Below, one piece after another: positions 12,013-32,449 of a stretch of 42,634 bases of DNA. The stretch comes from a virus, in the IMG/VR virus record IMGVR_UViG_3300035180_003043, positions 1-42,634 of that record. One strand, written 5' to 3'. Both the position numbers and the translations under genes were made by a program. The notes under the pieces were generated by a model, which saw nothing but the letters and a program-made list of their open reading frames with translations, did no database searches and had not been told where the DNA came from. Positions within the stretch are counted from its first letter, which is position 1; each line of letters starts with the position of its first letter.

Positions 12013-13959
12013 ATGAATGACATTAGTACCCCCATTAATAAAACGCTGGCTGATGCATTTCTGGTGGAAATACAGAGCCCAAGGCACATGAGAGACTGGA
12101 TTGAAACCTATATAGGTATTCGATTCCCTGATACATATATAGACCCAGCCTCAAATAGTTCTCCGATTGAGGCTATGTATCGTGCATATGCCGATTATCG
12201 AGATGACAAGTGCTTGCAAACGCCCGGTTACATCTGGATGTCTGGCCGCGATTTGGGAAAAACGCTATGTGGATCAATTTTGAATGTCCTATTAATGGTA
12301 CATTTTAAAGCCAGTATTGCCCATTTTGCGGCAATCAAGCCACAATCGGAAAAATGTTTGCAATATGTAAGTGGATTTATTCGTAAAATTACCCCATATT
12401 TGGAATATCATGGTAGAAGCGTCATTGGGTCTGCAAAATCAAAAATTCAGATTGAAAATGAAGATAAAACCGTCAGCTATATAACCGTGATCGTAGCTAA
12501 CATGGCGGGTGGTAATTCCGAACATTGTCCTGTTGTCTCATTTGATGAATTAGAAGTATTATCGGCAGAAGGACTAAAAGGTTACAAAGAAGCAAAACTG
12601 ATTGCTACGCGGTTTAAAAATAAAGGCCCGCTAGTAATCAAATATTCAACCCGTAAATTTGCGGGTGGTATTTTTGAAAAAGAGATCCAAAACGCCAAAA
12701 ACACCGGTGAGATTGTTTTGAGTTGGAATATTGTGGATATGACAGAGAAATGCTTACCAGAGAGGTATAAACCCGACCAGCCTAAAATTAAACGATATAT
12801 TGCCAAAGAATTACCCCTACGTCAAATTACGCCAGATGAATTTGCTATGTTATCAGATAAGGATAGGCTCGATTACGATGCTATTGATGCTTATGCTGGC
12901 TGCGTGACTTGTCCTTTGTTACCTGTTTGCCGTACAAGGCTTGCGGATCGCCCCGTGGAAGATACAGGTGGGTTTTTTAAGTCAATTGACCACACTATCC
13001 GTCAATTCAAAATTACCGATGCGGAAACCGCCATGGCACAACTTCTATGCTGGAAGCCATCTACTCAAGGAATGGTATACCCTAGATTTTTACCGAAGGA
13101 TGACGGCACGGGGAACACTTTAACAATGAAGCAGGCATGGGAAAGCTTTACAGGAACAGATGCACCCAGAAATCTGTCTTTACCTAATTTGATTAAAAAG
13201 ATGCTGGACAGTGGCGTCAGATTTCATTGTGGTCTTGACTGGGGATATAGAAACTGTTACAGTATCGTCGTTGGAGCGAAACTAGCAAATGGGGAAATGT
13301 GGCTATTAGATACCTATGCGATTAGCGGATTGGAATGGGATGCTCAGCTTGCTTTAGCTAAGCAAGTGAGAGATATATATAAACCTGCAAAATGGTTTTG
13401 CGATACCGCATATCCGGGTAGTATAAAAACTTTTTCTAAAAATGGAATGCCATGCGGTAAATTCACAAAAGATATTTCAGCGGGGATTAACGCCGTCAGA
13501 ACTCAAATTGTAGATGCTTCGGATCGTCGAAAACTAAAGGTTGTTATCCATGAGCGGAACAATCTTATGCTAAAAATGTTTGCTGAGAACTGTTTTAAGA
13601 TGGACGCGCTAGGGAATATCATTTTTGAGGAACGGGAAACTGATGTAGTGGATATCGGAGATGCCACTCGCTATCTATTTCAGAACCTTTTTGCCCCAAA
13701 ACGTGAAGGCATGAAGCATAATATCGATACTAATATTTACGCTTCGATGGATACATCCACAGAAACCTTTGAAAGTTGGCAAGAGCAGAAACTTAAGGCA
13801 GCCAGACAAGAAGATCAACTACAGGATTCCAAAGGGTTATCGCATGATGGTAACCTGTTTTGGGATTTTGGCGGACTAGACAAAACTGACGATGATCTGA
13901 GTGATCGGCCTAATATTATAGAGGAAGCCGAAGAAATCGAAAAGCTTAAAGGACAATAA
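12013..13959 (+). CDS. Terminase large subunit
   Basis: The 648-residue packaging motor: ATPase that drives DNA into the prohead and nuclease that cuts it. Walker A is SGRDLGKT (residues 77-84, the terminase-type variant), and Walker B is VVSFDELE (about 174-181). A Cys cluster GCVTCPLLPVC (about 297-307) could bind metal. The RNase H-like nuclease part begins GLDWGYRNCYSIVVGA (about 407), with a second acidic site in FCDTAYPG (about 462) and a third in VVDIGDATRYLF. The acidic C-terminal tail may dock on the portal. It follows the small subunit directly and is in line with the portal gene downstream. Confidence 0.93.
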   Translation: MNDISTPINKTLADAFLVEIQSPRHMRDWIETYIGIRFPDTYIDPASNSSPIEAMYRAYADYRDDKCLQTPGYIWMSGRDLGKTLCGSILNVLLMVHFKASIAHFAAIKPQSEKCLQYVSGFIRKITPYLEYHGRSVIGSAKSKIQIENEDKTVSYITVIVANMAGGNSEHCPVVSFDELEVLSAEGLKGYKEAKLIATRFKNKGPLVIKYSTRKFAGGIFEKEIQNAKNTGEIVLSWNIVDMTEKCLPERYKPDQPKIKRYIAKELPLRQITPDEFAMLSDKDRLDYDAIDAYAGCVTCPLLPVCRTRLADRPVEDTGGFFKSIDHTIRQFKITDAETAMAQLLCWKPSTQGMVYPRFLPKDDGTGNTLTMKQAWESFTGTDAPRNLSLPNLIKKMLDSGVRFHCGLDWGYRNCYSIVVGAKLANGEMWLLDTYAISGLEWDAQLALAKQVRDIYKPAKWFCDTAYPGSIKTFSKNGMPCGKFTKDISAGINAVRTQIVDASDRRKLKVVIHERNNLMLKMFAENCFKMDALGNIIFEERETDVVDIGDATRYLFQNLFAPKREGMKHNIDTNIYASMDTSTETFESWQEQKLKAARQEDQLQDSKGLSHDGNLFWDFGGLDKTDDDLSDRPNIIEEAEEIEKLKGQ

Positions 13960-14928: not shown

Positions 14929-15126
14929 ATGAAAAAGCTGTCTAAATTACTGGATGAAACATTTACAACCTTGGATCAAACCTCTGATTTAGAGAATACC
15001 ACGGTTTTAAATAAAATGCAAGCCGTAATTTTGGAAGCTAAAGGGTACGATGGAATTGCTTCATCAGAAACCTTTAAAGAGTTTAAAAGTTTATTCAAAG
15101 CCCTTCAGAAAAGGTCGGAGAGATAA
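14929..15126 (+). CDS. Small helical protein before the portal gene
   Basis: A 65-residue, mostly helical protein (KKLSKLLDETFTTLDQTSDL start, FKEFKSLFKALQKRSER end) not recognised. It follows the preceding gene without a gap, and its TAA overlaps the portal ATG (TAATG). Size and place fit an assembly factor or an adaptor for portal or terminase, but this is position-based only. Confidence 0.6.
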   Translation: MKKLSKLLDETFTTLDQTSDLENTTVLNKMQAVILEAKGYDGIASSETFKEFKSLFKALQKRSER

Positions 15127-17168
15127 TGTCAGATAATAATAATACGCCTAGTTTGCCGAAATCAAGTGAGAGACAGGTTTATACTGTTGATCATGAAGGC
15201 AAAGATTTGCAAAAAGTTGATACCACAGCCGTTGCTAAAGTTGAAGGTGAAGATTATCTTGGCCAAATTTTAAAATCCCTAAAAGATCAGCAAGTAGCAC
15301 AGCGAGTTGCTTTCGAAGTTGATCCAAGTAATGTCCAAGGCGTTTCTTCTTACGGAGCCCTTTATGTACAAAAAACTAAACTTACGCCTGATTGGGTTAT
15401 TAAAGCCTTAACCGGCCCTGGCGGAGATGAATTATTAAATCAAATTCTTCAAGCACGATCAAATGTAATCGCTTCTTTTGGTAGACCGAAATCAGATCGA
15501 TTTTCAGTTGGTTTTGAGTTTTTACCAATTAACAAGTCCACTGAAATTGACAAGGATGCGGATAAAGCTGCAGCAGTAAAAGATCTCATCGAGAAAGCCA
15601 AAGAGATTTTCTGGAACTGTGGATATGCTGGATTAAAAGAAGACCAAACTACCAATCTTTCTCAGTTTTTAAAGATGATTGTTCGCGATGGTTTACGTTT
15701 TGGACGTTGCGCTATCGAAGTGATTCATGCTGTTGACCCAACCTCGGAAAGTGGCGAAAAAGTACATTCTTTCCGTCCAGTAGACTCTGGAACTATTTAT
15801 AGAATTAAACCTAAGTCTGAAACAGACCAGTCTGTCCGTAATTCGGCAATCAAACTGTTACAAGAATTAAAAAACGAAAAAATTGATGTTACAAAATACA
15901 AAAAAGATGAATATAAATGGGTTCAAGTGGTTGATGGTAAACCAATCCAAGCATTTTCTGATAAAGAATTAATTGTTTATAATTTTTATCCAACCACTAA
16001 CGTGGAATACAGCGGATACCCATTAACTCCGATTGATCAAGCTATTAGCGCGATCATGACTCATATTAATATCACTTTGCACAATAAACTCTATTTCCAG
16101 CATGGCCGCGCTACTCGTGGTATGCTAGTTTTCAATTCTGAATCAATGGATGAAATGTCAGCGCAAAAAATCCGTTTACAGTTCAATCAAACTATTAATA
16201 CGGTACACAATAGCTGGCGTATGCCGGTTTTCGTAGTAGGTGAAACTGAGAAAGTTACTTGGCAGCCGATCGATCAAGGCGGCAGAGATATGGAATTCCA
16301 ATATCTCATGGATAATAATAGCCGTATCATTATGGGTGCATTTCAAATGTCTCCAGATGAATTGCCGGGCTATAATCACCTATCTCGTGGTACCAATACT
16401 CAAGCATTAAGCGAAAGTTCGAATGAATGGAAAATGACTGCATCTCGCGATACAGGATTACGTCCATTAATTTACGATATTCAAGATCTATTTAATACCC
16501 ATTTATTTCCAAGATTCTTACCAAATCTTTCTGAATCTCATCAGATGATCTTTTCTGGCTTAGATAAAGAAGATCCAGAAAAAGAATCTACTCGTTTACA
16601 GCAAGATATGAATGTTCATTTAACATACAATGACATCCTTAAAAAAGTTGAAAAAGATATTTTGCCTGCGGCTTTTGGTGCAGATTTTCCTCTTAATCCA
16701 CAATTCCAGCAAGTTGTTGAAAAGTACATGACTTTTGGTGAAATCCAAGAAAACTTTTTTGGTAAAAAAGGTGCAGCCCAAGATCCTAGAAATCAATGGT
16801 ATGCTAATCCAATGTGGATGCAACAGCAACAAATGCTTGTCCAAAATGCACAGATTGCTATGCAAAATCAAATGCAAGCCCAACAAATGGTTGCCCAAGC
16901 CATGAATCCACAGCCACAACAAGATCCTAATGCCCCTCAACAAGAAGGTGACGGTGGGGAACCTACGCAGAAATCTGAAAAAGATTTTTATGGTGAAATA
17001 TTCCAAAAGAATATGCAAAATATTCAAACTAATCATAACACGATCAGTAATATGATTCTAGCTAGACATTCTGCTATTACTAAAAAGCATTCAGATGATT
17101 TCCAAAAGCAATCTAAAAAAGCTGCTGAAAAATTAACAGCCGGACTGATTAAAAAGAAGAAAAAATAA
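15126..17168 (+). CDS. Portal protein
   Basis: A 680-residue protein forming the portal vertex, the ring through which DNA enters and leaves the head. The core is typical of phage portals: LTPDWVIKALTGPGGDELLN, then LQARSNVIASFG, a FLKMIVRDGLRFGRCAIEVI segment, a loop ending YRIKPKSE, and IDQAISAIMTHINITLHNKL (stem helix). GAFQMSPDELPGYNHLSRGT and a dispensable Gln/Pro/Met-rich C-terminal part (about residues 560-625) follow. The end is very basic (KKKKK). It lies in the standard order terminase, portal, MuF, protease. Confidence 0.85.
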   Translation: MSDNNNTPSLPKSSERQVYTVDHEGKDLQKVDTTAVAKVEGEDYLGQILKSLKDQQVAQRVAFEVDPSNVQGVSSYGALYVQKTKLTPDWVIKALTGPGGDELLNQILQARSNVIASFGRPKSDRFSVGFEFLPINKSTEIDKDADKAAAVKDLIEKAKEIFWNCGYAGLKEDQTTNLSQFLKMIVRDGLRFGRCAIEVIHAVDPTSESGEKVHSFRPVDSGTIYRIKPKSETDQSVRNSAIKLLQELKNEKIDVTKYKKDEYKWVQVVDGKPIQAFSDKELIVYNFYPTTNVEYSGYPLTPIDQAISAIMTHINITLHNKLYFQHGRATRGMLVFNSESMDEMSAQKIRLQFNQTINTVHNSWRMPVFVVGETEKVTWQPIDQGGRDMEFQYLMDNNSRIIMGAFQMSPDELPGYNHLSRGTNTQALSESSNEWKMTASRDTGLRPLIYDIQDLFNTHLFPRFLPNLSESHQMIFSGLDKEDPEKESTRLQQDMNVHLTYNDILKKVEKDILPAAFGADFPLNPQFQQVVEKYMTFGEIQENFFGKKGAAQDPRNQWYANPMWMQQQQMLVQNAQIAMQNQMQAQQMVAQAMNPQPQQDPNAPQQEGDGGEPTQKSEKDFYGEIFQKNMQNIQTNHNTISNMILARHSAITKKHSDDFQKQSKKAAEKLTAGLIKKKKK

Positions 17169-17186: not shown

Positions 17187-18035
17187 ATGAATCTATCTAC
17201 CGATCAAGAAGAACTAATCAAAATAACCTTACAGGCTTTGTTTGAAACTATCAAAGCCAAGTTTCTTGGTAATTTTTACAAAGGACCATCGATTTATTTT
17301 GAATTAGCTACTAAGCAAAATCCACTAGATACCGTTGGTGGTATTTTTGAGTACGCATTGAGAGCAACCACGAAAAATCCCGTTATCGATCATGACCTCA
17401 TTAGTAAGCTTGCGAATACATCAGAAAATTATATCGAAGCCGAAAAACAACGCACAATGGAACGGATTTTAACCGGCGCCGAAACAGTTACAAATCCCGA
17501 CGACCTGAAAGATCTTATTCAAACGTCTATTGATAAATCGAGCAAATATATTGACTTATTAATGGCAACGGAAACTCGCAATGTACAAGCGTGGGGTGAA
17601 ATGTCTGGAATTCAGCAGGTTGGTGCATCTTTGGGCGTAGATGATCCAACTATCGCTCGCTTAGGTGTATGGGATGATAAGATTTGCGATGCTTGCCTGA
17701 AATTATGGCACCAACCGGATAATCAAAAAATACCACGTGTATGGAAAATGTCAGAGCTTCAAAGTGGGTATAATACCGATCAAAAGAATCCCGTGCCAAC
17801 CGTATCAAGTACGCACCCCCGGTGCAGACATATCCTGACAATTGTTCCACCCAGTTTTGGGTATGACGAAAACGGGCGAATTAAGTTTATTCGGTTCGGT
17901 TATGATATCTATGATGATCAAAAGGGTATTCATAAAAATGAACGATCTTTCCGTACAGGTGGTACGACTGACGATGTGGAAGAATTTATTAATCTGCATC
18001 TAGCAGAAAGCTGTTGTAATCATTCAGGAACTTGA
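17187..18035 (+). CDS. MuF/SPP1 gp7-like minor head protein
   Basis: A 282-residue head morphogenesis protein of the MuF type, expected inside the head near the portal. The diagnostic C-terminal half is clear: ATETRNVQAWGEMSGIQQVG, then GVWDDKICDACLKLWHQPDN (a CxxC pair), and THPRCRHILTIV, the HPxCRC-like end with a conserved Pro, Cys and Arg. The N-terminal half is helical. The ribosome site CGGAG precedes the ATG. It lies directly after the portal gene, its usual neighbour. Confidence 0.8.
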   Translation: MNLSTDQEELIKITLQALFETIKAKFLGNFYKGPSIYFELATKQNPLDTVGGIFEYALRATTKNPVIDHDLISKLANTSENYIEAEKQRTMERILTGAETVTNPDDLKDLIQTSIDKSSKYIDLLMATETRNVQAWGEMSGIQQVGASLGVDDPTIARLGVWDDKICDACLKLWHQPDNQKIPRVWKMSELQSGYNTDQKNPVPTVSSTHPRCRHILTIVPPSFGYDENGRIKFIRFGYDIYDDQKGIHKNERSFRTGGTTDDVEEFINLHLAESCCNHSGT

Positions 18036-18091: not shown

Positions 18092-20071
18092 ATGAAAATA
18101 TACGGAATAGGCGCCAGTCAAGCCATTGATTCTTCAGGGGAAATCTTAATGATCGACGGTGTCGATCTATCCGATGTTCATGCTGGAAAAGCCTTCTTCA
18201 ATTGGGAGCACAGTAACGATGGCGCCGATACCTGCGTCGGAAGCCTGACTTTTGCCAAAAAAATCTATTCTGAAAAAGACTGTGAAAATCCAAAACAATT
18301 AGAATGCTGGAATGAAACCCTTTTACCAATGATTTACATTGAAGGGGTTCTCTTTGATAAAGAAGGACATGTTGGGGCAATTTGCTTGGCCGCTATGTTT
18401 CGTTCATTTGTAGCCAGAAATCAAAAAATTGAAATCGGTTCTTCCATTGAAGGTTCTACCATGGAACGTGGAAAAGGCGAAGAGCACCATGTTCTTAAAA
18501 GAACTGTAGCCCGCCGTTGGGCAATTACCCTCAGACCGTGTAACAAGCAATGTTTCCTTAAGGTATTGGCAGACGATACTGCTGATGTAATGAAATCGGA
18601 AATCGACTGGGATTCTATCAGTCATGATCGTGCCCCAAAACATGGATTCATCGAAATCGACGACCCAATCGAAGATATTTACCACACTATTAATGAATTA
18701 AATAAAACCCTAACAGCTGGATCGTCTAATGTTGCACCAAGTCAAATGGTTGGCGGATCTGCACTTACCCGTGAAAATCTAGTACCTAAAATGCAAAACG
18801 TTGGGATGCAAACTAGACTGAAAGCATCATTCAAGCGTTGGAATAAAAAGAAACCACTTAAGGAGCACCTTAAATCTGAGCTTGAAGATGTATCAGAGGA
18901 GTATATAGATAACTTCGCTAAACTCGCTGATGAACTCCATATTAAGAAATCTGAAGAATCAATGCATACTTGGCAACAAGTTTGGAATAATATGAAAGAT
19001 TTCCATACTGGTTCAGTTAATGAAAAAGATGCACCCCATATGCACAAAGATGCGCAAAAATATGAGCATTATAAACTTAGAAAAATCCCACTATCAAGTT
19101 TACATCATGGATCTGATACGCCCGATAAACCATTAGATCGCGAAGATGAAGCGCATGCACATCATTACGCTAAATTAGATACCCAAGCGCCACCAATCAC
19201 TCTGCACCCAAAAGAAACTGGTTACCATATCGTAGATGGTCGTCATCGTGCTAGAGCTGCATACCTGAGAGGCGACAAAGATATTCTAGCTTACGTTGGT
19301 ACTCCTATTCAAGCATTCACTAAATCTGAATCCCCTATTCGTATAGACCAGTCAATTGGTAATGATCGCGCAAATGCAGACCAGAAAGCTTTAATTGCAG
19401 GTATAGTTGTGCCAGCCAATGGCGGACAAAATATTCAAGTCATGAATGATTACGGCCAATCATCCCATATCAAGCCTTCTGCCCTGACCGAATCAGGTGG
19501 AGAAACCGCTAAAAATGCTTCTGCATATTATGCTGCAGCAAAAGATTTTTTCGACTTGGGCGAGCATGTTCCAGTATCAGCCTATTTTGCACACCAGACG
19601 GCACCACAAGAAGGGGCACCATTATTTCTAGCCACCGAGCATGTATCTGGTAAGCCATCGCTCATGGGTTCATTGTTTGAGGATTCTATCGGTAAAGATA
19701 AAAATCTTATGCATAAAATTGCATTAATGGATACTATTTTGGGAAATTCACACAGAAACCATGGTAATATTATATTGGGAGATACACCAAAGCTGATTGA
19801 CAACGAACACGCTTTCGAATATAAACAAAAACCAGCGTTTCACATCAATCAATCCGGTGCCGACATTATTTCCGAAGATGTTCGTAATTGGTTAACTAGT
19901 AAGGATGCCAAGAAATTGGCTGGCTTGCTTGCATCACATAGAATCGGTATAGACCGTATTAAGAAAGCTATTTTTGCATTGAAGACTGCACAAAAAATGA
20001 ATCATCATCCGATAGGTACCATTTTAGAGAACGTCCACTTTGTGGAACCTTCTCCAGAGGTAGCACAGTAA
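18092..20071 (+). CDS. Prohead protease fused to ParB-like and kinase-like domains
   Basis: A 659-residue multidomain protein. Residues 1-170 resemble the prohead proteases of large phages: FFNWEHSNDG (likely catalytic His40), IGSSIEGSTM (likely Ser117 or Ser118) and the basic ARRWAITLRPCNK end. Residues 202-237 form a linker also found at the start of the capsid protein. Residues about 325-405 look ParB-like (KIPLSSL, then HIVDGRHRARAAYLRG). Residues about 420-620 look like an atypical kinase (HipA/phosphatidylinositol-kinase style): SSHIKPS with a candidate ATP-binding Lys461, then MDTILGNSHRNHGNIIL and PKLIDNEHAFEY with a likely metal Asp570. In the loop, His554 stands where most of these kinases have Asp, so activity is uncertain. 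AAGGA precedes the ATG. Confidence 0.75.
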   Translation: MKIYGIGASQAIDSSGEILMIDGVDLSDVHAGKAFFNWEHSNDGADTCVGSLTFAKKIYSEKDCENPKQLECWNETLLPMIYIEGVLFDKEGHVGAICLAAMFRSFVARNQKIEIGSSIEGSTMERGKGEEHHVLKRTVARRWAITLRPCNKQCFLKVLADDTADVMKSEIDWDSISHDRAPKHGFIEIDDPIEDIYHTINELNKTLTAGSSNVAPSQMVGGSALTRENLVPKMQNVGMQTRLKASFKRWNKKKPLKEHLKSELEDVSEEYIDNFAKLADELHIKKSEESMHTWQQVWNNMKDFHTGSVNEKDAPHMHKDAQKYEHYKLRKIPLSSLHHGSDTPDKPLDREDEAHAHHYAKLDTQAPPITLHPKETGYHIVDGRHRARAAYLRGDKDILAYVGTPIQAFTKSESPIRIDQSIGNDRANADQKALIAGIVVPANGGQNIQVMNDYGQSSHIKPSALTESGGETAKNASAYYAAAKDFFDLGEHVPVSAYFAHQTAPQEGAPLFLATEHVSGKPSLMGSLFEDSIGKDKNLMHKIALMDTILGNSHRNHGNIILGDTPKLIDNEHAFEYKQKPAFHINQSGADIISEDVRNWLTSKDAKKLAGLLASHRIGIDRIKKAIFALKTAQKMNHHPIGTILENVHFVEPSPEVAQ

Positions 20072-20688
20072 TGAAAGTTTTAAGAGTTACTTCTGATTAT
20101 GTTGACGTACCACTATTAGAAGTACGTACTGATGGTAATAAAATTGAAATTATCGTTGATAATAGTAATGGCAAGATCAGCAAGGAATTGGATGACACCC
20201 TAGCTTCTTTACATGATTATGTTAAACATTCATCCCATTTAAAACTAACTGAACCAGATGAGCCAGCCGCACATTTACTTCGTTACGTTTTAGAGAATGG
20301 TGATGTTGCAGAAGTTACGACCGATGGTGCTACGTGTGTATTGAATAATAAACTTTTATCACGCCAAGAAAAAGCAGCCTTTTTTGATGCTTTATCATCT
20401 GGTCAAATTAAAGTTGCTCGCAAGGCTGATATTCAAACTCCAATTCCCGTGCCTGCTGGAACGAAAAGACAACCGCAACCAAATGAGCCTAAAAAGGTTA
20501 AATTGGATATGCATATATTAGAGCAATACAATGATCAGCAGCGTGAAAAAAAGAAGAAGCAAGAAGATCAAGCTCTAAGAGGTGAGGCTGATTTTGGTGA
20601 TGCGACGTTTGAAATACCGTCTACTGATATACCATTTGCTCAAAGTATTGCTCAAGTCATAGCGAAGGACAAGTATGCCAACAAATAA
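20071..20688 (+). CDS. Hypothetical protein between two multidomain genes
   Basis: A 205-residue protein not recognised. The first 125 residues are alpha/beta (DYVDVPLLEVRTDGNKIEII start); then comes a Pro-rich and very basic linker (about 138-160), a KKKKQ coil and an acidic tail. It overlaps the upstream gene by one base (TAATG) and the next gene by 14, so the three are made together. It could be a chaperone or adaptor for the giant protein that follows. Confidence 0.65.
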   Translation: MKVLRVTSDYVDVPLLEVRTDGNKIEIIVDNSNGKISKELDDTLASLHDYVKHSSHLKLTEPDEPAAHLLRYVLENGDVAEVTTDGATCVLNNKLLSRQEKAAFFDALSSGQIKVARKADIQTPIPVPAGTKRQPQPNEPKKVKLDMHILEQYNDQQREKKKKQEDQALRGEADFGDATFEIPSTDIPFAQSIAQVIAKDKYANK

Positions 20689-23600
20689 TGATAACGTGCC
20701 TGATATTGACATACGTCAAGCTACTCCGCCAGCGATGGAACAGCCCCAAGCGATCAATGAAGAATTATCTCCAGAAACTGATGCGGAACCTACTTGGCAG
20801 CCGCATGGAGATCATTGGCGTAACTTATCAGACCAAGATGCTACTCCAGAATATTTAGATAGCGTAGCTCAACAGCATATTGCTAACCCTGATTTTATTG
20901 ATAAGTACGACTCCGAAAAGCTAGCCGAACATCCAAATATCACGCCGGAGACCTTAAATAACTTATATAATCATTATTCACAAGATCCTGATAAACATAA
21001 ATATTTAGAGCAGCTGGCTGCTATTCATGGTAATCCAAATGCCCCAGCCGCTATACATAACACGACTTTAGATAACTGGCTAGCGCAACCTAATTCTGAT
21101 ACCGCATCTAATGCTTCTAATCCGATATTAAACGCTGCATTAAACCATCCCAACGTCCCGCAAGAAAAAGTTCATCAAGTACTGGATCGAGTAATTAGTG
21201 ACCCTAAGAATAATAACCATCTTGATGCATCAAGAGCTGATCCAGCTTGGTTGCAAAATAAATATAACGAAGCTAAACAAGCACATGATGATAATTTTCA
21301 TGAGCTTTCCGTTTCCGGTCGATTACGCGACTCTCAGAAAAAGATTAGCCATTATGGCAATGAATTGATCGATCACCCAAATCATACGCCAGAATCATTA
21401 AGCGCACTCCATAATCAGATCACTACTCAAGGCAATGGCAGCGCTGCTGAACGATTACTGGAAAAACAGCCAAACTTATCGCATAATCAAGTCGAAGATC
21501 TATATAATAAATTTAAACCAGAAGAAGGCAGCTGGTCTAATATTACCTCTAGAGCTTTTGGTCATAATAATATTGACCCAGCTTTTTTGGCGCACAAGGC
21601 GCTGACCGGTAACGATCAAGAAAAGGAAGAGGCTCTTCAGTCTGAAAAACTTCCGCATGAAACGCAAAAGAAGATTACGGAAGATGCCATTGCTAGTGGT
21701 GATAGCAACACTCTAGCACAGCTATTAGAAAATAAATCCTTACCTTCCGAGTTAGTACATCAAATCTATAATAATAGTGCTAATGAAGGTGACTATGCTC
21801 GCCGTAAGGCTTTTAATCATGGTAACTTTCCAGAGCATGAAGTGGAAAATGCGTGGAATTCATCAGATAAAAGTCGTGAAACTACAAAACAGTTTTTGCA
21901 ACGCGATGTGTTGCCAAAATCCGTTTTAGCTGATATCATTACTAAAGGTAAGCCCGTTGATGCAGCTAAAGCGGTTGGCCATAAAAGTACCGATAAAGAT
22001 ATTTTAGATATTGCCGCCAAACGTAAATCTAAAGATGTTAAAGCTGCTATTGCTAGGCATCCTTTAGCTGCCGAATCCAATGTTCAGGATTATATTAAAT
22101 CTGGCCATGTTCCTGCTGATCAATATTGGGCAAAATTTGACAGCAAATTACCACCCGAAGATCAAGCAAAAATGCATCAGCATTACTTTGATAAATTAAT
22201 GACCGCTGCACCAAATAAAAAAACGGACGGGCTTGCCGGAAAATCCGCTATCAATTTGTACAATTCGCCTCATCTCACTGCTGAGCAAAAAAATAAAATT
22301 ACGGAAAAAGCATTGCACGAGAGCGATTCATATAATTATGGTTATGATGATCGCAGAGCATTTCTGAAAGTTATAGGTCAGGCAGCCAATGATGGCAATG
22401 AAGAGGCCATTAAAAAAACATTTTCCGGTCGTGGTAGTATTGAGGCGTTACAATTAGAAAAAGCGCATAACCCAAAAGTGATCAGCACTGCACTAGATAT
22501 AGCCATGGGTAGGGCAGAGGATGACCGATATAGTGATAATGACAGATCTGGAATCGCTTCTAAAATAATTGCAAATCCAAACTTAAGTGACGATCACGTG
22601 CATTCGTTACTATCTAACGAAGACTTAGATCTGACTGTCGCAGTGGCGGATGGCGCAATTTCCAAGCATTTAGAAACGAAGACTCCAGAGCAGCAACAAC
22701 AGTTCTTGAATAATTTAGCTCAATCAGGAGATCATGGTAAAGCATTAGTGATTGCTAATCCATCCACACCGATTGAGATGAAAAATCAGCATATTAATTC
22801 TCTCGATAGCGATCATATTGCTGCTTTAGCGTATACCATGGGTACTAGATTTGGCGAAATGGCCAAAGGTTTACCAGAAGATACTAAATTAAAGCTGTAT
22901 TCCATGCCAACCAGTAGTCGGACACCGATGTTTGATCGGATGAAAGAGGCTTTTTCACCGGAACAAACTCCGTTAAGCACTTTACTTTCCAGCGTACCGT
23001 CAACTGATATGCGTCACATACTTAAGTATAGTATTTCCGATAAATATAAATTCACGGCAGATGCAGTTCCAGTAGTATTACAAAAAAGTCCAGAAGCTTT
23101 TGATACATATTTCGATAGAATGGTATCCCAGCATCCACATTATAGTGTCCGTCGAGATCATCCAGCTCATAATCATATGAAAGATACCATTAATTCTATA
23201 CTACCCCACTTAAATGAGGATAATGGTGTTCATGCCATCATTGGTATGATGACGTCTGAAGCTACTAGACATAGTTCAGAAAGCGCCAAAGGTGCCTTTA
23301 ACTTTTTACTAGATCCAGCCCAAAGCCCATTTTTAGACCCAGCAGCTAGGGAAGAATTAATCCCAATGGCTTTGAAGCGTGATCTTTTCGATGACGAGAC
23401 CAAGAAACAAATTTTTAGTGATCCAGCTTATCAAGCCACGTTAATTGCTAATGCTAGTACGCCACCAGCAGTGAAAGCTAATTTAATTCAAAGTAATCTA
23501 GCATCTGGGCAAGCTTCCGATGCAATCTGGAATGCTATTAAAACTGAACCGAGAGTATTTGGAAGTCTTGATCGTGATAGCGATGAGCAGATGTTTAAAA

Positions 23601-26600
23601 GTATCATTAATGAGGGTGCTCGTCGTGCAGATCATGATACGGTTGCCAATACTTTTAAAGAGTTTTTAGATTCCAAATCTGCTAGTTCAATGGCTATTAC
23701 ATCAGCAATGCAAAACATCCAACGCAATCCAGCCATGGGTGAGCAAGAAAAGAATAAGTTAATTTTAGATTCCTATAATCAAATGTCGAAAAGCAGAACA
23801 AACGCTACTTTTTTCAGGGATCGCGTAGCTCCGGCATTAGACGAAACAGTTGCGAATGCTATGATGGCAACAAATGACATGAGGTCATTGTTTAATATCG
23901 CAGCCGATAAAAATTCATCCGATATTTTCAAGGATACCATCAACAAGATCGCTGTTAATGCTGACTCTTTGAATGACGATCAGCTTGGAAGCATGCTTGA
24001 TCAGATGCAGGATAATGCATCGCACTTAGCTAACTTAACTCCGAAAAATTTCATTAATGTTGTCAATGCTTCACTGCGTAAAGATGATGTGACGGCAATC
24101 GCGGGTACTAATGCGTTATCATCTGGAATTAAATACTCCAAAGGGCGTAATTTACAGACGTTAAGTAAAGCTGGACTCCAACGATTAGATGTGTTGTCGC
24201 AACAATTAGTTGTGCCACCAGCTGCCGACGATATAAACGGCCAAGAAATTTACAAGAATAAACAAACAGTTCACTCTGGACTTGCTCAGACGATCATGCA
24301 AACATCGACCGATCTTGATACGCAAGTGAAGGCTGGATTACAGATTCCTGATGATTACGAAGGTCGTGTAATTAGACTTAATAGTGATTTCTTGAATTCT
24401 GGTGATTTTTTAACCAAATTTTCTGGTAAAAAATGGGCTGGATTAGCAGCTGCCTCTTATTTTAATCAATTTGATCGGACGAATCAATCTGCTGCGGCAG
24501 ATTTTCTCGTCAAAAACTATTTGCCGTTTAAAGAAGACTCTGGCGAACACGTCGGAATGATTTTATCATCATTTAGTGGAAGCGCACAGAATATAGACCC
24601 AGAATTCGTACATAAATTATTTGATTCCCAGAATTTTGATCAGCAACTTAATGCAATGAATAGAATGATCAATCATGGTCAAAAATACGGCTTTCAAAAC
24701 CTGCCGATAGAGCATATCATCGATAAGTTTCATTCTAATGTAGAACAATTAGTGAATGGGATAGATGCAACTACTGGAGCTAAATACGATGCGACCCATC
24801 CAGAATACCATAATAAGATAGCATCAGCAATCAAGGCGTTAATACCTGCTAGCGTGTACGGCGGATATAATAATGAGCAATCCGCAGAAAAAAGACAAGA
24901 AGCAATTGCTAAGTCATCAGCCCTTGCTAATAAAGTCCTGAGTAATCCAAACACTCCGATAGATGTAAAACAGTCAATAGCAAATTCGGCGCATGCTATC
25001 TTTGACATGCATGACGGTATATCAAAAATACCGGAAGAATCATTGAACGACCTGATTGCAAATATTGTTGATCATACGACTGTAACAACAAACTTGTCGG
25101 ATATGATTCGGACTCCAAAAGTAAGCGCATCTAATACTGAAAAAATCCTAACGAAATCTCCAGAACAAGCACGTTTCATGACAGATAACCCGCAAATGAC
25201 GCCGGAAAGAATGTCATTAATTGGTAAACACGTGTTACCTAATTTATCTGAATTTGGACATCACCATATATCTGAAATGTCGAATGAAATTCTCACACAT
25301 GCGCAAACTGCGGGTACAATTGATCTTGCTATACCTTTAGTGGGTGACATGATTTCCCAGTCAGGTGCTGGCGGGAATAATTTAAAATACGTGATCAAGG
25401 ATCTATCCCCTCTGAGTGATGATCATACCCAAACTCTGATTCGTAAGTACGGATTTGATGCCGAGCAAATGTTGATGGCTGGTCACGGTGGTCAAAAAAC
25501 CTATGATGATTATGTAATTTCAGGTTCCACTCCAAGTAATGTACATGCATTTATTCAACATCCATTGTTTGATGATCGTGGCGTTGATCTGGTGATGAAT
25601 AACGGCAGGAATGTAACTGATAATATCGCTCGGATCGTAAAAGCAGGAACCAAGGTATCAGAAGCGAAGTTTAATCAATTAACTAAAGAGCATTCAGATG
25701 TGTTCGAAAAGAATCCTAACCTATTAACTTCGTCACCGTATGTAACGTATGAGAAATTAAATGAGCTGCATAAGAAAATTGCACCAACTTTTGATAAATT
25801 TATCCGACCGGGTGAGGCGTTCCCACCAACTTATACTAATATTAAATACGGTTCAAAAGTATTCCGTGAAAATTATCCACAAGAATTGCCACGCGGAATG
25901 ACTACCTTATCTAATGGTGATATTTTAAAGTCACATTCAGCAAGGCCAGAAGCCGACAGGCTCCAGAAAGCAATGCAAGTTATTCCACCGGAAGGAATAG
26001 CTTGGGCTCAATTTAAAAAACTACATAAACAAATGGAAAACTGGCCAGAGGTTAAGGCATTATTTATGTCTAAGAATAATAAGCCGGTTATGCCGGAAGA
26101 TGTAGCAAATGAAATCGCCAAAAAACCGGAACAGCAATTTCATATCAGCTATTCCACATGGGATGGTGGCCAAAGACATTCGCAGGCTAATAACTTAGTT
26201 GTTCAAGTAAATACAGGAGAATTTTTCGATAAAGAGCTAGGTCAAGACCAAAAGTTATGGCAATTCTATCAAATGATTCAACAATCTGCTAATGGTGCTG
26301 CCGGTGGACATGCAGGCAGTCATCCAGTAACTCCTCATACGATTGGATGGGTTCGCATTGATGTTTCAAGTCCAGAAAGTTTTATCGTAGAGGAATTCCA
26401 ATCTGATTTCAATCAAAAATTGAAAAAGAAGGTTCGTGATTCATTAGGAAGCCGAGATTCTTTCGAATATGGCGGAGAAAGGTATACCGCAAAAGAAGCT
26501 GAGCAGTACGTGGATAAGATATCAGAATTGTTTAAGCATTTTAATCCCATCTCTTATGATATCGTAGAGAAACTGGCAAGACAGCAAGGCATCAAACAGA

Positions 26601-26803
26601 TTTATATACATGGACAAGGTGTTCGCCGTTATTTATCTGGAGTAAACGAAGATCAACATATCGCAGCATTCGATGAGGCGTATACCAAATTGCCGAAACA
26701 GAACGGTTATTCTGAATGCAATTACGAAGATTACCCGAATCACAGCAACAGAACATCAAGTGCTATTAAGAATCATCAATGCTGGGTTAAAAAGCTCAGC
26801 TAA
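20675..26803 (+). CDS. Giant helical-repeat polyvalent protein, likely injected
   Basis: A 2042-residue protein, the largest in the window. Roughly residues 40-1750 are an array of short helical repeats around a motif like 'HPNxTPExLxxL' (for example HPNITPETLNNLYNHY and NPNLSDDHVHSLL), resembling HEAT or leucine-rich-variant solenoids. The last 260 residues differ. TIGWVRIDVSSPESFIVEEF ending in EEFQSD (about 1906-1912), then a helical KLARQQGIKQIYIHGQG part and a Tyr/Pro-rich end, resemble the 'EiQSD' domain of large polyvalent proteins in phages and conjugative elements. Such proteins often enter the new host with the DNA. Its place in the head-gene operon fits an internal virion protein; no signal peptide or membrane segment is seen. 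Confidence 0.6.
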   Translation: MPTNNDNVPDIDIRQATPPAMEQPQAINEELSPETDAEPTWQPHGDHWRNLSDQDATPEYLDSVAQQHIANPDFIDKYDSEKLAEHPNITPETLNNLYNHYSQDPDKHKYLEQLAAIHGNPNAPAAIHNTTLDNWLAQPNSDTASNASNPILNAALNHPNVPQEKVHQVLDRVISDPKNNNHLDASRADPAWLQNKYNEAKQAHDDNFHELSVSGRLRDSQKKISHYGNELIDHPNHTPESLSALHNQITTQGNGSAAERLLEKQPNLSHNQVEDLYNKFKPEEGSWSNITSRAFGHNNIDPAFLAHKALTGNDQEKEEALQSEKLPHETQKKITEDAIASGDSNTLAQLLENKSLPSELVHQIYNNSANEGDYARRKAFNHGNFPEHEVENAWNSSDKSRETTKQFLQRDVLPKSVLADIITKGKPVDAAKAVGHKSTDKDILDIAAKRKSKDVKAAIARHPLAAESNVQDYIKSGHVPADQYWAKFDSKLPPEDQAKMHQHYFDKLMTAAPNKKTDGLAGKSAINLYNSPHLTAEQKNKITEKALHESDSYNYGYDDRRAFLKVIGQAANDGNEEAIKKTFSGRGSIEALQLEKAHNPKVISTALDIAMGRAEDDRYSDNDRSGIASKIIANPNLSDDHVHSLLSNEDLDLTVAVADGAISKHLETKTPEQQQQFLNNLAQSGDHGKALVIANPSTPIEMKNQHINSLDSDHIAALAYTMGTRFGEMAKGLPEDTKLKLYSMPTSSRTPMFDRMKEAFSPEQTPLSTLLSSVPSTDMRHILKYSISDKYKFTADAVPVVLQKSPEAFDTYFDRMVSQHPHYSVRRDHPAHNHMKDTINSILPHLNEDNGVHAIIGMMTSEATRHSSESAKGAFNFLLDPAQSPFLDPAAREELIPMALKRDLFDDETKKQIFSDPAYQATLIANASTPPAVKANLIQSNLASGQASDAIWNAIKTEPRVFGSLDRDSDEQMFKSIINEGARRADHDTVANTFKEFLDSKSASSMAITSAMQNIQRNPAMGEQEKNKLILDSYNQMSKSRTNATFFRDRVAPALDETVANAMMATNDMRSLFNIAADKNSSDIFKDTINKIAVNADSLNDDQLGSMLDQMQDNASHLANLTPKNFINVVNASLRKDDVTAIAGTNALSSGIKYSKGRNLQTLSKAGLQRLDVLSQQLVVPPAADDINGQEIYKNKQTVHSGLAQTIMQTSTDLDTQVKAGLQIPDDYEGRVIRLNSDFLNSGDFLTKFSGKKWAGLAAASYFNQFDRTNQSAAADFLVKNYLPFKEDSGEHVGMILSSFSGSAQNIDPEFVHKLFDSQNFDQQLNAMNRMINHGQKYGFQNLPIEHIIDKFHSNVEQLVNGIDATTGAKYDATHPEYHNKIASAIKALIPASVYGGYNNEQSAEKRQEAIAKSSALANKVLSNPNTPIDVKQSIANSAHAIFDMHDGISKIPEESLNDLIANIVDHTTVTTNLSDMIRTPKVSASNTEKILTKSPEQARFMTDNPQMTPERMSLIGKHVLPNLSEFGHHHISEMSNEILTHAQTAGTIDLAIPLVGDMISQSGAGGNNLKYVIKDLSPLSDDHTQTLIRKYGFDAEQMLMAGHGGQKTYDDYVISGSTPSNVHAFIQHPLFDDRGVDLVMNNGRNVTDNIARIVKAGTKVSEAKFNQLTKEHSDVFEKNPNLLTSSPYVTYEKLNELHKKIAPTFDKFIRPGEAFPPTYTNIKYGSKVFRENYPQELPRGMTTLSNGDILKSHSARPEADRLQKAMQVIPPEGIAWAQFKKLHKQMENWPEVKALFMSKNNKPVMPEDVANEIAKKPEQQFHISYSTWDGGQRHSQANNLVVQVNTGEFFDKELGQDQKLWQFYQMIQQSANGAAGGHAGSHPVTPHTIGWVRIDVSSPESFIVEEFQSDFNQKLKKKVRDSLGSRDSFEYGGERYTAKEAEQYVDKISELFKHFNPISYDIVEKLARQQGIKQIYIHGQGVRRYLSGVNEDQHIAAFDEAYTKLPKQNGYSECNYEDYPNHSNRTSSAIKNHQCWVKKLS

Positions 26804-27275: not shown

Positions 27276-27917
27276 TTATGCTGCCTTTCCTTCTGCTACG
27301 TTAAACTTAAAGATATTCTTAATTGCGAATCTTGGGATACGGATAGTCATTTCAGCTTTTCCTAAAGCTACGTTAAGGTCTTCAACTCTCTTAATTTTCT
27401 TGGCTTTTGCGCAAACTGGGCCAATTCCAAGGGCAATTGAATTCTCGTCAGTCAATTTCAATCCACAGATACCACAGTGGCAAACTCTTTTGTAAGAAGT
27501 AACCACGCGAGCAGTAACAGAACTGTAATTTTCGCTAATAACTTCAAGTACTTCTACGTTGTGGAACTTCTTCTCAAAACCAGCTTGAAGGCCAATTTTT
27601 ACAGCCATCATGTGGTTTACGGTAATAATGTCGCCAACCGCCACAGAAGCGTCAGGATTAGCAGCTTTCACCGGAGTGGTTACTTCACCTTGGGACTGTA
27701 AAGTGCGTAAAGTAATATTGTTTACTACGCTTTGGGAAGCTGCAAGTTGTGCAGGAGATAAGATCCAACCTTTTGCAACATACGCAGCCATTCTTGCGAG
27801 AAAGCTATTTCTTTTGCTGTGCTCGGAAATCGCAGCGAAAAGCTCTTGGTTGGCTTCTAGGTAGAGAGCCTTAGTTTCAGATTGTTCAGCAGTTACTGGA
27901 TTAATAATAAATTTCAT
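27276..27917 (-). CDS. DUF6011-like zinc-finger protein
   Basis: A 213-residue protein with a four-Cys zinc module in its C-terminal half: CHCGICGLKLTDENSIALGI then GPVCAKA, matching the 'CxxCgrxLtdxxSxxxGiGpxC' pattern of DUF6011-type modules in phage and plasmid proteins. The N-terminal half is helical; a central part (VAVGDIITVNHMMAVKIG) looks like a small beta barrel. The ATG at 27917 follows AAGAAGGAAA and lies 16 bases after the -10 box at 27940-27945. A longer frame to 27968 has no proper start and would run through the promoter. It leads the minus-strand island. Confidence 0.7.
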   Translation of the reverse strand: MKFIINPVTAEQSETKALYLEANQELFAAISEHSKRNSFLARMAAYVAKGWILSPAQLAASQSVVNNITLRTLQSQGEVTTPVKAANPDASVAVGDIITVNHMMAVKIGLQAGFEKKFHNVEVLEVISENYSSVTARVVTSYKRVCHCGICGLKLTDENSIALGIGPVCAKAKKIKRVEDLNVALGKAEMTIRIPRFAIKNIFKFNVAEGKAA

Positions 27918-27939
27918 AGTATGTGTTTCCTTCTTATAT

Positions 27940-27968
27940 AGATTATCACTATTCGAATCAGAAGTCAA
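27940..27968 (-). promoter_or_regulatory. Sigma-70-like promoter for the minus-strand island
   Basis: On the minus strand, TTGACT (27968-27963), a 17-base spacer and TAATCT (27945-27940), preceded by TGA to give an extended -10. It is 22 bases upstream of the ATG at 27917, leaving a 16-base leader with a good ribosome site. It matches the other promoters in the window in spacing and -35 box. Confidence 0.75.
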
Positions 27969-28600: not shown

Positions 28601-29419
28601 ATGAAATTCTCCGATATAGAAATAGATCAACTATTAGCATCCGTAGAAGATGCTATGGCACAAGCTAGTAAGCTTGCTAAGTCTCAGCCGATGCAAAAAG
28701 ATGCAGACGCTGATCAAGACGATCAGCAAGCTGCTCCAGCAATGGATGCCCAAGCTCCTGAAAGCGCTCCAGCAATGGACGCTGCTCCAGCTGCTGATGC
28801 ACAAGCTGCTCCTGATCAAGACCAAGGACAAGACCAAGCCCCAGAAGGTTCACCAGAAGATCAAATCCAAGATGAAGGACAAGATCAAGGCGAAATTTCT
28901 GATGAAGAACTTCACCAAATCTATGCGAGCATGGATGAAAATGAACTTCATAGGCATTTGACTGCTATTGAAGCAGCTCTAGGTGGTGGACAAGATCAAG
29001 GCCAAGAACAAGAACAACAAGCTCCAGAACAAGCGCCAGCAGCTGCTCCGGCACCTGCGTCAATGACTGACCAAATGGCGATGAAATCTGAACAAACTGT
29101 AAGTGACCTCAATAAATCTGAAACTAAAAAGCTTCAAGATGAAAATGATGCACTTAAAAAGTCACTTGATAAAGTAATTTCAGCAATGGGTAAAGCTTTT
29201 CAGCCAACTCGTAAAGCTGTAACCGATATCGAGTATATCCAAAAATCAGAGTCTCAAACCGACGAGCGTCCGCTCACTAAGTCTGAAACTGTGGCACAAC
29301 TCAACAAAATTGTAAAATCTAACAGCCTCTCAAAAGCCGATAGACAAGCAATCAACGATTACATCCTTGCGGATGGATCACAAGAACAAGTCAAAAAAAT
29401 TCTCAAAGGGGGAAAATAA
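28601..29419 (+). CDS. Acidic, Gln/Asp-rich scaffold-like protein
   Basis: A 272-residue protein immediately upstream of the capsid gene, the usual place for the head scaffold. Residues 30-155 are low complexity, made of Ala, Pro, Asp and Gln in repeats such as DQDQGQDQAPEGS. Near residue 185 comes a helical coil (LQDENDALKKSLDKVISAMG), and the C-terminal third is a basic helical region (NSLSKADRQAINDYIL). Scaffolds of this type form the core around which capsid assembles and are then cut away by the prohead protease. The ribosome site AAGGAG is strong. A head core protein other than scaffold is possible. Confidence 0.65.
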   Translation: MKFSDIEIDQLLASVEDAMAQASKLAKSQPMQKDADADQDDQQAAPAMDAQAPESAPAMDAAPAADAQAAPDQDQGQDQAPEGSPEDQIQDEGQDQGEISDEELHQIYASMDENELHRHLTAIEAALGGGQDQGQEQEQQAPEQAPAAAPAPASMTDQMAMKSEQTVSDLNKSETKKLQDENDALKKSLDKVISAMGKAFQPTRKAVTDIEYIQKSESQTDERPLTKSETVAQLNKIVKSNSLSKADRQAINDYILADGSQEQVKKILKGGK

Positions 29420-29422
29420 ATA

Positions 29423-30811
29423 ATGGACTTAATTAAGCAACTAGAATCCCTAGTTAAAACCTTAGAGGCTGGAAGTTACAATTCAGCACCGGGACAATTA
29501 GTACAAGGATCTGCGCTTCAATCTGAAGATCTGTCAGCTGTTATGCATAATGTGTGTATCGCTTCAGATGAGATTAAATTGCAGAAACTTTTCGGTAAGA
29601 AAAAAGCAAAATCTCTTACCATCCAATTCAATCGTCAGTTATCATACGGACGTTTGGGTGGAGCAGCTCAGCGCGAAGGCGCGGTTGGTAATACCAACGT
29701 AGGCGACTACGTTCGTGCTACAGTACCTATGTGCTTCTATTCAGAAGTACGCAGAGTGACTGAAGCAGCTAACTTGATCGAAGCATTTGATGGTATCAAA
29801 GCAGAAGATCGCGAAGCTGAAAACGCAGCTGAAGTAATTGCTATGAACATTGAGTTCGACCTTTTCAAAGGTAAAGCAGACTTCTCTAACGCAGGTGTAT
29901 TTGATGGTCATCCAGCAGCTATGCCTGAATTACCAAACATGCTTGGAGTTGACTCTCAAATTCGTCAATCTGACATGCTTGTAACTACTCAAGACCTTAT
30001 GTTCGCGTCTTACGGATCTAATCAATCTGTAGTTCTTGCTCAGAACGCTGCTCTTGACCAGATCGTAATTGAAGATGCTCGTCTTCGTGCAAAGTTGAAC
30101 TTTTCACAAGCTAAGAATCTTTATGTAGATCCTGTAATCATGACTAGCTACAACAAAAAAGTTGCACTTGGTACTGGTACTAACAGTATTCAACGTATTC
30201 AACTCGCTGGTTCTGCTCAAGACGTTTCTGGAGCTTCTCTCCGTCGTCAATGGACAGCTCACGGTGATGTTAATCTTGAAGAGTCTCACTTCTTACGCGG
30301 TAAGACTTCTCCACTTCGTCCAAACATTGGTGGGCCTTCTGCTCCAGCAATCACTACTCAACCATCTTTCGGTGGTTCTGGTTCATTGATTACTGCGGGT
30401 ACTTATGTTTACCTAGTAACTGCTCAAAGTGAAATCGGCGAAAGCCCTGCTACTGCTACTAACACAGTTTCTCCTACTACTGGCACAGTTGTTACTATGA
30501 CAATTACTGCTCAGTCTGGAGTTAAGTTTTACAGCATCTATCGCGGAACTAATGCTAAGAATGCTAAGTTCATCGGTAACGTTGCTGCAACTGGTGGAAA
30601 CGTAGTATTTACTGACCTTGGTAATAAGGCTCCGGGATTCGTCACAGGGTACCTCCTAGACGAGAAGACTTGGGAAATGCATGATCTTGCCGCTTACAGT
30701 CGTAAGAAACTTGCTCAATCCGATCTTTCTACTCCAGAGGCCCATTATACCTTCACAACTGTGGCAGGATACCAACCTCGTAAAAATGTAATTATCGATA
30801 ATTTAATTTAG
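29423..30811 (+). CDS. Major capsid protein with an Ig-like insertion
   Basis: A 462-residue protein, the likely major head protein (HK97 fold). Evidence is its place after the scaffold-like gene, strongly biased codons and the terminator just after it. Typical features include an N-terminal propeptide-like segment (KTLEAGSYNSAPGQLVQGSA, residues 12-31), LTIQFNRQLSYGRLGGAAQR, and a domain-like core. Residues about 305-410 are an Ig/FN3-like beta insertion (AGTYVYLVTAQSEIGESPAT start) that could be displayed on the head surface. The last residues (YQPRKNVIIDNLI) look like a P-domain strand. The segment 9-44 is repeated in the protease fusion protein. The ribosome site (AGGGGGAA) overlaps the end of the upstream gene. 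Confidence 0.8.
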   Translation: MDLIKQLESLVKTLEAGSYNSAPGQLVQGSALQSEDLSAVMHNVCIASDEIKLQKLFGKKKAKSLTIQFNRQLSYGRLGGAAQREGAVGNTNVGDYVRATVPMCFYSEVRRVTEAANLIEAFDGIKAEDREAENAAEVIAMNIEFDLFKGKADFSNAGVFDGHPAAMPELPNMLGVDSQIRQSDMLVTTQDLMFASYGSNQSVVLAQNAALDQIVIEDARLRAKLNFSQAKNLYVDPVIMTSYNKKVALGTGTNSIQRIQLAGSAQDVSGASLRRQWTAHGDVNLEESHFLRGKTSPLRPNIGGPSAPAITTQPSFGGSGSLITAGTYVYLVTAQSEIGESPATATNTVSPTTGTVVTMTITAQSGVKFYSIYRGTNAKNAKFIGNVAATGGNVVFTDLGNKAPGFVTGYLLDEKTWEMHDLAAYSRKKLAQSDLSTPEAHYTFTTVAGYQPRKNVIIDNLI

Positions 30812-32326: not shown

Positions 32327-32449
32327 ATGAGTGATATAGACAGTCCATTTTGGGATATTTTGTTTGATAATAACCAGTTCTTTTTTTGCCACGATCCAAT
32401 TGGTGAAAACGGTAATAGCTATCCGATGCTAGCAGTAGGAGATTGTTAA
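32327..32449 (+). CDS. Tiny acidic protein
   Basis: A 40-residue protein ([20 protein letters not shown] start), acidic and Phe-rich, apparently read from a leaderless message. Its stop overlaps the ATG of the pentapeptide gene (TAATG). It is not recognised. Confidence 0.5.

Follow-up and report, generated by a model that had tools for sequence, protein, structure and literature searches.

A predicted prohead protease carrying a copy of the capsid-protein arm and candidate cargo domains in large, mostly uncultured phages

Analysis of the window, the whole 42,634-nucleotide stretch of IMG/VR virus record IMGVR_UViG_3300035180_003043 (positions 1 to 42,634), revealed one open frame of 659 residues (18092-20071, + strand; protein P0001), in which a predicted prohead protease is followed by a copy of the N-terminal arm of the major capsid protein (MCP), a ParB-like region and a kinase-like domain. 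From this anatomy, the family of related proteins and the placement of cleavage-like motifs, we infer that the gene encodes a self-targeting, self-processing protease-cargo precursor, the tail of which would be cut free inside the prohead and its cargo delivered; drawing on sequence and on analogy with known phages, this reading is given a probability of about 0.6. An earlier note, made from the DNA letters alone, had described a single gene fusing protease, ParB-like and kinase-like domains and had supposed such a fusion to be unusual. The open frame and the fold and profile matches reported below confirm that the gene is real and has the parts first described; the fusion itself proved not to be singular, and the first interpretation as a whole is partly supported.

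The gene and its family

The 659-residue protein has a 100% identical copy in another contig (L003, 160,612 bp), and a 159,805-bp contig (L004) holds a relative whose best segment is 65% identical (L-numbers denote the loci and contigs compared; L005 and L065 are Myxococcus phage Mx1, and L055 is SPO1). A search with a profile of the protease region yielded 31 loci from viral contigs, with the twin of the window, L004 and some duplicates counted, and one locus among bacterial genomes, L051, in a contig of a metagenome-assembled genome (MAG); among phages, Mx1 was found with the window protein. The whole 659-residue protein gave no match among plasmids at E 1e-3. The protease-cargo fusion is a recurrent layout, met with in large phages, most of them uncultured, and in Mx1. 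The chance that it is an artefact of annotation or assembly is negligible, since the frame is open and recurs without change in another contig, and other contigs, the isolated phage Mx1 and the MAG contig hold long open reading frames (ORFs) like it.

The protease domain

The N-terminal part of P0001 is predicted to be a capsid maturation protease of the assemblin/gp21 type. In a model built from 25 sequences, with a mean predicted local distance difference test score (pLDDT) of 81, residues 1-162 align to the varicella-zoster virus protease (1vzv, Z 9.3) and to T4 gp21 (5jbl, Z 9.0). The top 34 rows of the fold search with this model were all capsid proteases, and the next row had Z 4.8. Foldseek alone gave a weak result, with a best E of 0.03 (herpesvirus protease) and nothing below 0.001. 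The earlier note had pointed to His40 and Ser118, and both are invariant columns in the 26 aligned sequences, window included; they are presumed to form the catalytic pair. Of 25 members, 20 matched the head maturation protease family phrog_1028 with E no higher than 0.1 (best 1.6e-9; window member 0.049). With the protease domain of L019 as query, 18 SPO1-type Bacillus phages were found at 5e-6 or better, several of them annotated with a head maturation or prohead protease, and the gene of the window lies between those for portal and MCP.

Three relatives appear to carry an intein within the protease gene: L032:9983-14266 (Pfam, above cut-off), L039:9959-14875 (below cut-off, E 0.041) and L054:4947-9719 (by eye).

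A copy of the capsid-protein arm

The linker that had been described between the protease and ParB-like parts is present, but it contains a feature that had been overlooked. In a protein search, residues 192-254 of P0001 resemble the N terminus of the MCP of the same window (E 1.2e-6). A first arm profile, built from two MCP arms (window and Mx1), was searched against all ORFs of at least 60 residues in 34 stretches and matched only MCPs and protease genes at an independent E value (iE) below 0.1, the next matches having iE 0.13 and 0.9; it recovered 27 of 30 protease ORFs, near-duplicates counted, and missed L028, L032 and L035. The segment of P0001 itself matched the arm profile at iE 2.5e-10. 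A second profile of 11 rows was run on 12 whole records, 7 of which had supplied profile rows. It found the MCP in 12/12 and the protease in 10/12 at E<1e-9, with one more at 0.0045 and one miss; for the 5 records that had supplied no rows the figures were 5/5 and 4/5, respectively. Three protease rows also match major-head-protein families weakly (phrog_617 in 2/25, phrog_752 in 1/25; best E 0.0023).

The arm segment is likewise common to the SPO1 protease gp3.2 and MCP gp6.1 (score 111, against a maximum of 50 in 500 shuffles). Since these SPO1 proteins have the arm in common without cargo, the arm is probably older than the cargo. Chance similarity was considered and rejected on the strength of the protein search, the two arm profiles and the SPO1 shuffle test. 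For Chryseobacterium phage MA9V-3, sharing of the arm between protease and MCP was not significant (score 33; 101/500 shuffles as high); in this phage the protease is followed, by eye, by a scaffold-like stretch within one ORF.

A lysine of the arm is invariant in the 11-row alignment (A6) and nearly so in alignment A3, and in most rows it stands in the context hydrophobic-x-K-[AST]-[LM] in MCP and protease alike. This context would suit a different explanation, in which the arm is a mere common substrate of the protease (hydrophobic-x-K-[SAT], then L/M), cut in both proteins and with no targeting role, while the tail is disposable and is degraded or expelled after maturation. We regard this as fairly unlikely: the similarity runs about 25 residues beyond the lysine (AGxxNxAPSxLxGGxALQxED), which exceeds the needs of a cleavage site. 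Co-evolution of the MCP and protease arms was also considered as proof of a binding partnership, and was found weak and not used. Own MCP/protease arm pairs had a mean above the permuted ones in all but 11/5000 permutations; when the catalytic domain was controlled for, 67/2000 permutations attained the partial Mantel value, and just 1 of 19 phages had its own pair in first place.

Besides MCP and protease, the 11-row profile matched two further places. An ORF of 96 residues (L052:1408-1698, - strand), distant from the head genes, ends in the capsid-arm-like segment LDKLTMALEADMYTKPSALIQGSQLMLESL (E 9e-6) and is possibly a stand-alone arm-tagged protein. An ORF of 161 residues (L053:518-1003, + strand) contains GSALQIEDLCPIMECVTF, which corresponds to the latter half of the arm (E 4.5e-4).

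Cleavage-like motifs

The motif [LIVMF]xKSE was defined on 18 scaffolds of other phages, with the window, L004, L029, L006 and L049 left out. Only two tripeptides are more over-represented in these scaffolds than KSE (34 observed, 4.8 expected), and in 27 of the 34 the residue two positions before the lysine is L, M, V or F. P0001 has three such sites against 0.06 expected, a number reached in none of 20,000 shuffles, and all of them, beginning at residues 166, 284 and 409, fall at domain borders. Among nine other head-module proteins of the window, only the scaffold-like protein was positive, also with three sites.

Across the family, KSE was counted 49 times in scaffolds (6.4 expected; this set takes in one duplicate and one protease ORF, L006 and L049 being present) and 27 times in protease tails (6.2 expected; 28 proteases, after L003, L020, L022, L029 and L042 had been dropped as duplicates or near-duplicates), while permuted tripeptides were not enriched. 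In other ORFs the same count gave 57 KSE against 31, and two of the permuted tripeptides reached 48 and 53. The broader motif K[SA]E was observed 54 times in 21 scaffolds (3.0 expected; L006 and L049 dropped, the near-duplicate pair L018/L029 retained) and 38 times in the proteases beyond the catalytic domain (3.95 expected), as against 2 in MCPs (1.2 expected) and 0 in the catalytic domains of 28 relatives, where only 0.9 was expected. When zones were counted in 25 rows (the short row L040 left out), K[SAT]E occurred in the linker between protease and arm in 12/25 and in the 40 residues after the helices in 12/25, with shuffle means of 2.7 and 2.6 and 0/1000 shuffles as high in either case.

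In Mx1, 11 of 12 hydrophobic-x-KSE sites lie inside a structural block at 5.6-39.3 kb that holds 21.7% of the ORF residues (binomial 5e-7), though the limits of the block were drawn after the matches had been seen and the permuted-motif controls had just 2, 2 and 0 sites. The carriers include the portal, a scaffold-like protein, an annotated NUDIX hydrolase of 1479 residues and an annotated kinase. The latter two (L065, 24404-28843 and 28851-30710) have hydrophobic-x-K-S/A-E sites within this block and are further candidates for head cargo.

The ParB-like and kinase-like domains

Residues 318-405 are ParB-like as judged by sequence only. Region 328-402 matches phrog_1033 (E 2.4e-5) and the solved ParB structure 7bnr (0.0027), which agrees with the earlier description, but in Pfam it stays under the curated cut-off (E 0.039; 14.4 bits, cut-off 26.3). 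The string DGRHRARAA in this region resembles the ParB GxxR motif. A close-relative search for this domain found only the twin contig among viral contigs, and none at E 0.1 among phages. In L004, IKKSE leads directly into the kinase lead-in; in the window IKKSE is followed by the ParB-like module, FTKSE and then a similar lead-in, so that the module and a cleavage-like site look as if they had been acquired or lost as one unit.

The kinase fold suggested by the earlier note was recovered by structure search: residues 131-371 of the model (419-659 of the protein) match phosphatidylinositol 4-kinase (PI4K) IIbeta at Z 16.8, CtkA at 12.6 and HipT at 12.3; Fam20 and HipA were further matches, and CtkA, HipT, Fam20 and HipA range over Z 10-12.6. 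Like PI4-kinase II, CtkA and HipT/HipA, the domain has this fold and the Lys, Asn and metal-Asp positions of the motif; unlike them, it has His554 for the catalytic Asp, and its sequence identity to these structures is 9-13%. In Pfam the region by itself reached E 0.084; of 25 relatives scanned, three have this domain above the PI3/PI4-kinase cut-off. The motifs listed earlier are indeed present (K461-P, HRNHGN at 554-559 and IDN at 569-571). The change of Asp to His that had been remarked upon is also found: at the catalytic position (DRxxxN) 12 of 14 aligned domains have Asp, and His occurs in the window and its near relative L004. The ATP-site Lys is present in 13/14, L004 being the exception. 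The roles of the Lys, Asn and metal-Asp positions are presumed from PI4K, CtkA and Hip kinases in general. The kinases of the window and L004 constitute a sub-branch, probably a degenerate or altered one, and the window kinase, having lost the catalytic Asp, is most likely a pseudokinase or has a changed chemistry.

Exchangeable candidate cargo

Closed protease ORFs span 300 to 1639 residues. Of the 25 proteins scanned, Mx1 included, 13 matched the PI3/PI4-kinase family with E up to 0.05; four (L035, L039, L040 and L043) have a GGDEF (diguanylate cyclase) domain above cut-off fused to the prohead protease, and eight have neither, three of which run off the contig. Judging from these sequences, the cargo modules (kinase, GGDEF cyclase, ParB) are exchanged between phages. 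The protease ORF of L018 stops at residue 300, just past the helices, with no room for cargo. Protease function may thus need no cargo, as would be expected were the tail disposable; a disposable tail would, on the other hand, need neither the catalytic Asp kept in 12 of the 14 kinase domains nor the GGDEF domains above cut-off in 4/25. In Mx1 a nucleotide cyclase is encoded by a separate gene, two downstream of the protease gene (L005:16115-16846, by annotation). Cyclase-like neighbours were also noticed by motif (GGDEF, by eye) at L051:13541-14692 and L054:3844-4632.

It is also conceivable that the kinase, ParB and GGDEF domains are not injected but serve assembly within the infected cell, where they might bind nucleotides to regulate the protease or contact DNA at the packaging portal. 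The gene does sit beside the portal and terminase genes, and a kinase that has lost its catalytic Asp and kept the ATP-site Lys, the Asn and the metal Asp fits a nucleotide-binding regulator. The type of cargo varies, however, among kinase, GGDEF, ParB and none, unlike what is expected of an assembly regulator, and in Mx1 and L051 the cyclase-like protein is a separate neighbouring gene; such a role is judged unlikely.

Midway in the protease ORFs of L005, L019, L031, L051 and L054 lies a conserved domain marked by a VPDTH motif (VVPDTHF). This domain of the long relatives had no solved-structure match up to E 5; it may resemble HhH-GPD DNA glycosylases.

Proposed mechanism

For the self-processing precursor, the following course is proposed. 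The arm copy would act as a capsid-targeting sequence, letting the precursor co-assemble with capsid protein and scaffold in the prohead. Once the prohead closes, the protease would become active and cut at hydrophobic-x-K-S-E motifs in its own chain, in the scaffold and perhaps in the arms, freeing the ParB-like and kinase-like domains within the head; at least some of this cargo would remain in the virion and enter the cell along with the DNA. The idea of self-release, already raised in the earlier note, gains indirect support because the cleavage-like motifs lie at domain borders and are dense in scaffolds, and because the arm copy lies between protease and cargo.

Several points weigh against this reading. 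Neither border zone has K[SAT]E in 8 of 25 rows (L005/Mx1, L019, L021, L023, L024, L026, L028 and L035), each zone taken singly lacks it in 13/25, and the arm/helix zone between them is also mildly enriched (6/25; shuffle mean 2.3, 15/1000). The Mx1 protease has no site fitting the motif, with RSE at 195 and 525 instead. K[SA]E is about fourfold enriched in other ORFs of at least 250 residues (52 against 13.4), so the motif is not exclusive to protease and scaffold. The SPO1 scaffold gp3.3 is rich in KS (12 against 3.2 expected), the next residue being L, I or F in 8/12 and E in 1/12; KS followed by L/I/F may mark the SPO1 cleavage sites, which makes the exact position of a cut uncertain. Because the hydrophobic-x-K-[SAT] step is present in most arm rows, the arm could be a common substrate and not a targeting signal. 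The ParB-like region has pLDDT mostly below 50 in the model. Finally, the motif was first spotted in P0001 and was redefined without the window once, the remaining motif tests being not blind, and shuffle tests overstate independence because the rows are related phages.

A wider version of the proposal can be put forward tentatively, at somewhat less than even odds: the head protease would serve as a delivery vehicle, in which a fragment shared with the capsid protein docks the precursor in the growing shell and exchangeable signalling domains (kinase, pseudokinase, diguanylate cyclase, ParB), situated behind cleavage sites, are released within the head and injected, the arm being a portable packaging tag that is possibly also borne by the small proteins of L052 and L053. 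If so, a sequence rule for head cargo in large, mostly uncultured phages would follow, namely a capsid-arm copy plus hydrophobic-x-K-S/A-E sites; an assembly enzyme would have been reused as a carrier, and diguanylate cyclases and lipid- or protein-kinase-like enzymes would be possible injected early effectors. The entry of cargo into phage heads has been worked out for few phages only; as SPO1 is a classic laboratory phage, the sharing of the arm can be tested there.

Comparison with known systems

Each ingredient of this arrangement, prohead protease, targeting sequence and polyvalent protein, has precedent; the combination, in which an N-terminal maturation protease bears a capsid-arm copy and exchangeable cargo, did not turn up in the open-licence papers searched. 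According to excerpts of Iyer et al. 2017 (PMC5512222), polyvalent proteins combine several domains, among them peptidase, ParB-like and kinase domains, and are frequently encoded close to virion genes; processing and injection were proposed for them. The window protein is similar in having two conflict-type domains, ParB-like and kinase-like, in one phage polypeptide. It differs in that its protease is N-terminal, as in all 26 aligned sequences, and accompanied by a capsid-arm copy, whereas the assemblin-like peptidase of polyvalent proteins, where present, is described in those excerpts as C-terminal; the polyvalent kinase group is described there as having no C-terminal subdomain, while the window kinase is PI4K/HipA-like.

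T4 proteins enter the prohead by virtue of a short capsid-targeting sequence (CTS) that the prohead protease cleaves off, and injection is described for internal protein I (excerpts of PMC9958956 and PMC5694885); the N-terminal 30 residues of P1 DarB are given as a head-targeting segment (excerpt of PMC9024508). As these excerpts have it, the T4 and P1 segments are N-terminal and on separate cargo proteins, whereas the segment in the window lies in the interior of the protease itself, is common to it and the MCP, and would be a targeting signal by analogy. The prohead protease gp245 of SPN3US cuts C-terminal to Glu (A-X-E), and its C-terminal region was inferred to target the prohead and to be cleaved off by the protease itself (excerpts of PMC10052503 and PMC5694885). 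Such shedding of a C-terminal propeptide (PMC10052503) is what a disposable tail would resemble; the removed piece has 64 residues and the excerpts mention no effector-like domains in it, whereas the tail in the window carries ParB-like and kinase-like domains. SPO1 gp3.2 is a similar protease with the same sharing of the arm with its MCP, gp6.1; it has 256 residues and no cargo, and is directly followed by the scaffold gene gp3.3. In excerpts of the open-licence PubMed Central literature, no report was found of a capsid-arm copy in a prohead protease or of an N-terminal prohead protease fused to a kinase or cyclase, nor was any found that gives the place at which the MCP of SPO1-type phages is processed.

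Neighbouring genes

The coordinates of the features are given in Table 1. Terminase and portal genes lie upstream of the protease gene, and the scaffold-like and MCP genes downstream. The first description had placed portal and MuF genes beside it; the portal stands by profile (phrog_12, PF04860), but 17187-18035, a putative MuF gene by its motifs, matched no named family in the PHROG and Pfam profile scans. A scaffold function of 28601..29419 is suggested by its position, its composition and the SPO1 gene order; its AMKSE is a KSE without the hydrophobic residue.

Table 1. Positions of features in the protease gene and its surroundings (residue numbers refer to P0001)
Feature	Residues	Coordinates	Strand	Basis
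Prohead (assemblin/T4 gp21-like) protease domain, predicted	1-165	18092..18586	+	Fold, profile, invariant His40/Ser118
Predicted cleavage site 1, VMKSE, after protease domain	166-170	18587..18601	+	Motif
Copy of MCP N-terminal arm	192-241	18665..18814	+	43% identity, E 1.2e-6; arm profile iE 2.5e-10
Helical segment after arm	231-289	18782..18958	+	Model helices, mean pLDDT 88-91 over residues 241-280
Predicted cleavage site 2, IKKSE, between arm/helices and cargo	284-288	18941..18955	+	Motif; same residues in L004
ParB-like cargo domain, putative	318-405	19043..19306	+	Sequence profiles; absent from L004
Predicted cleavage site 3, FTKSE, between ParB and kinase	409-413	19316..19330	+	SE aligns with SE of L004 IKKSE
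PI4K/HipA-like kinase domain	415-650	19334..20041	+	Fold, alignments; K461, N559, D570 kept; His554 for catalytic Asp
Terminase large subunit		12013..13959	+	phrog_5653 1.3e-9
Portal protein		15126..17168	+	phrog_12 1e-18; PF04860 above cut-off
Scaffold-like protein directly upstream of MCP		28601..29419	+	LNKSE, IQKSE, LTKSE (full motif) and AMKSE
MCP		29423..30811	+	phrog_752 2e-35; first ~46 residues (29423-29560) hold arm common to protease gene

Directly downstream of the protease gene, 20675-26803 encodes a protein of 2042 residues that is repeat-rich by eye and has a counterpart of 1989 residues in L004; it matched no Pfam family above cut-off and contains none of the cleavage-like motifs. 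Amid the head genes, an ORF at 27276-27968 (- strand) contains CGLKL...GIGPVCAK, and a similar ORF at L052 700-1365 adjoins the arm-tagged ORF (by eye). A pentapeptide-repeat-like protein (ANLSGADLR, by eye) is encoded at 32443-32892 (+ strand), with a repetitive ORF antisense to the same stretch.

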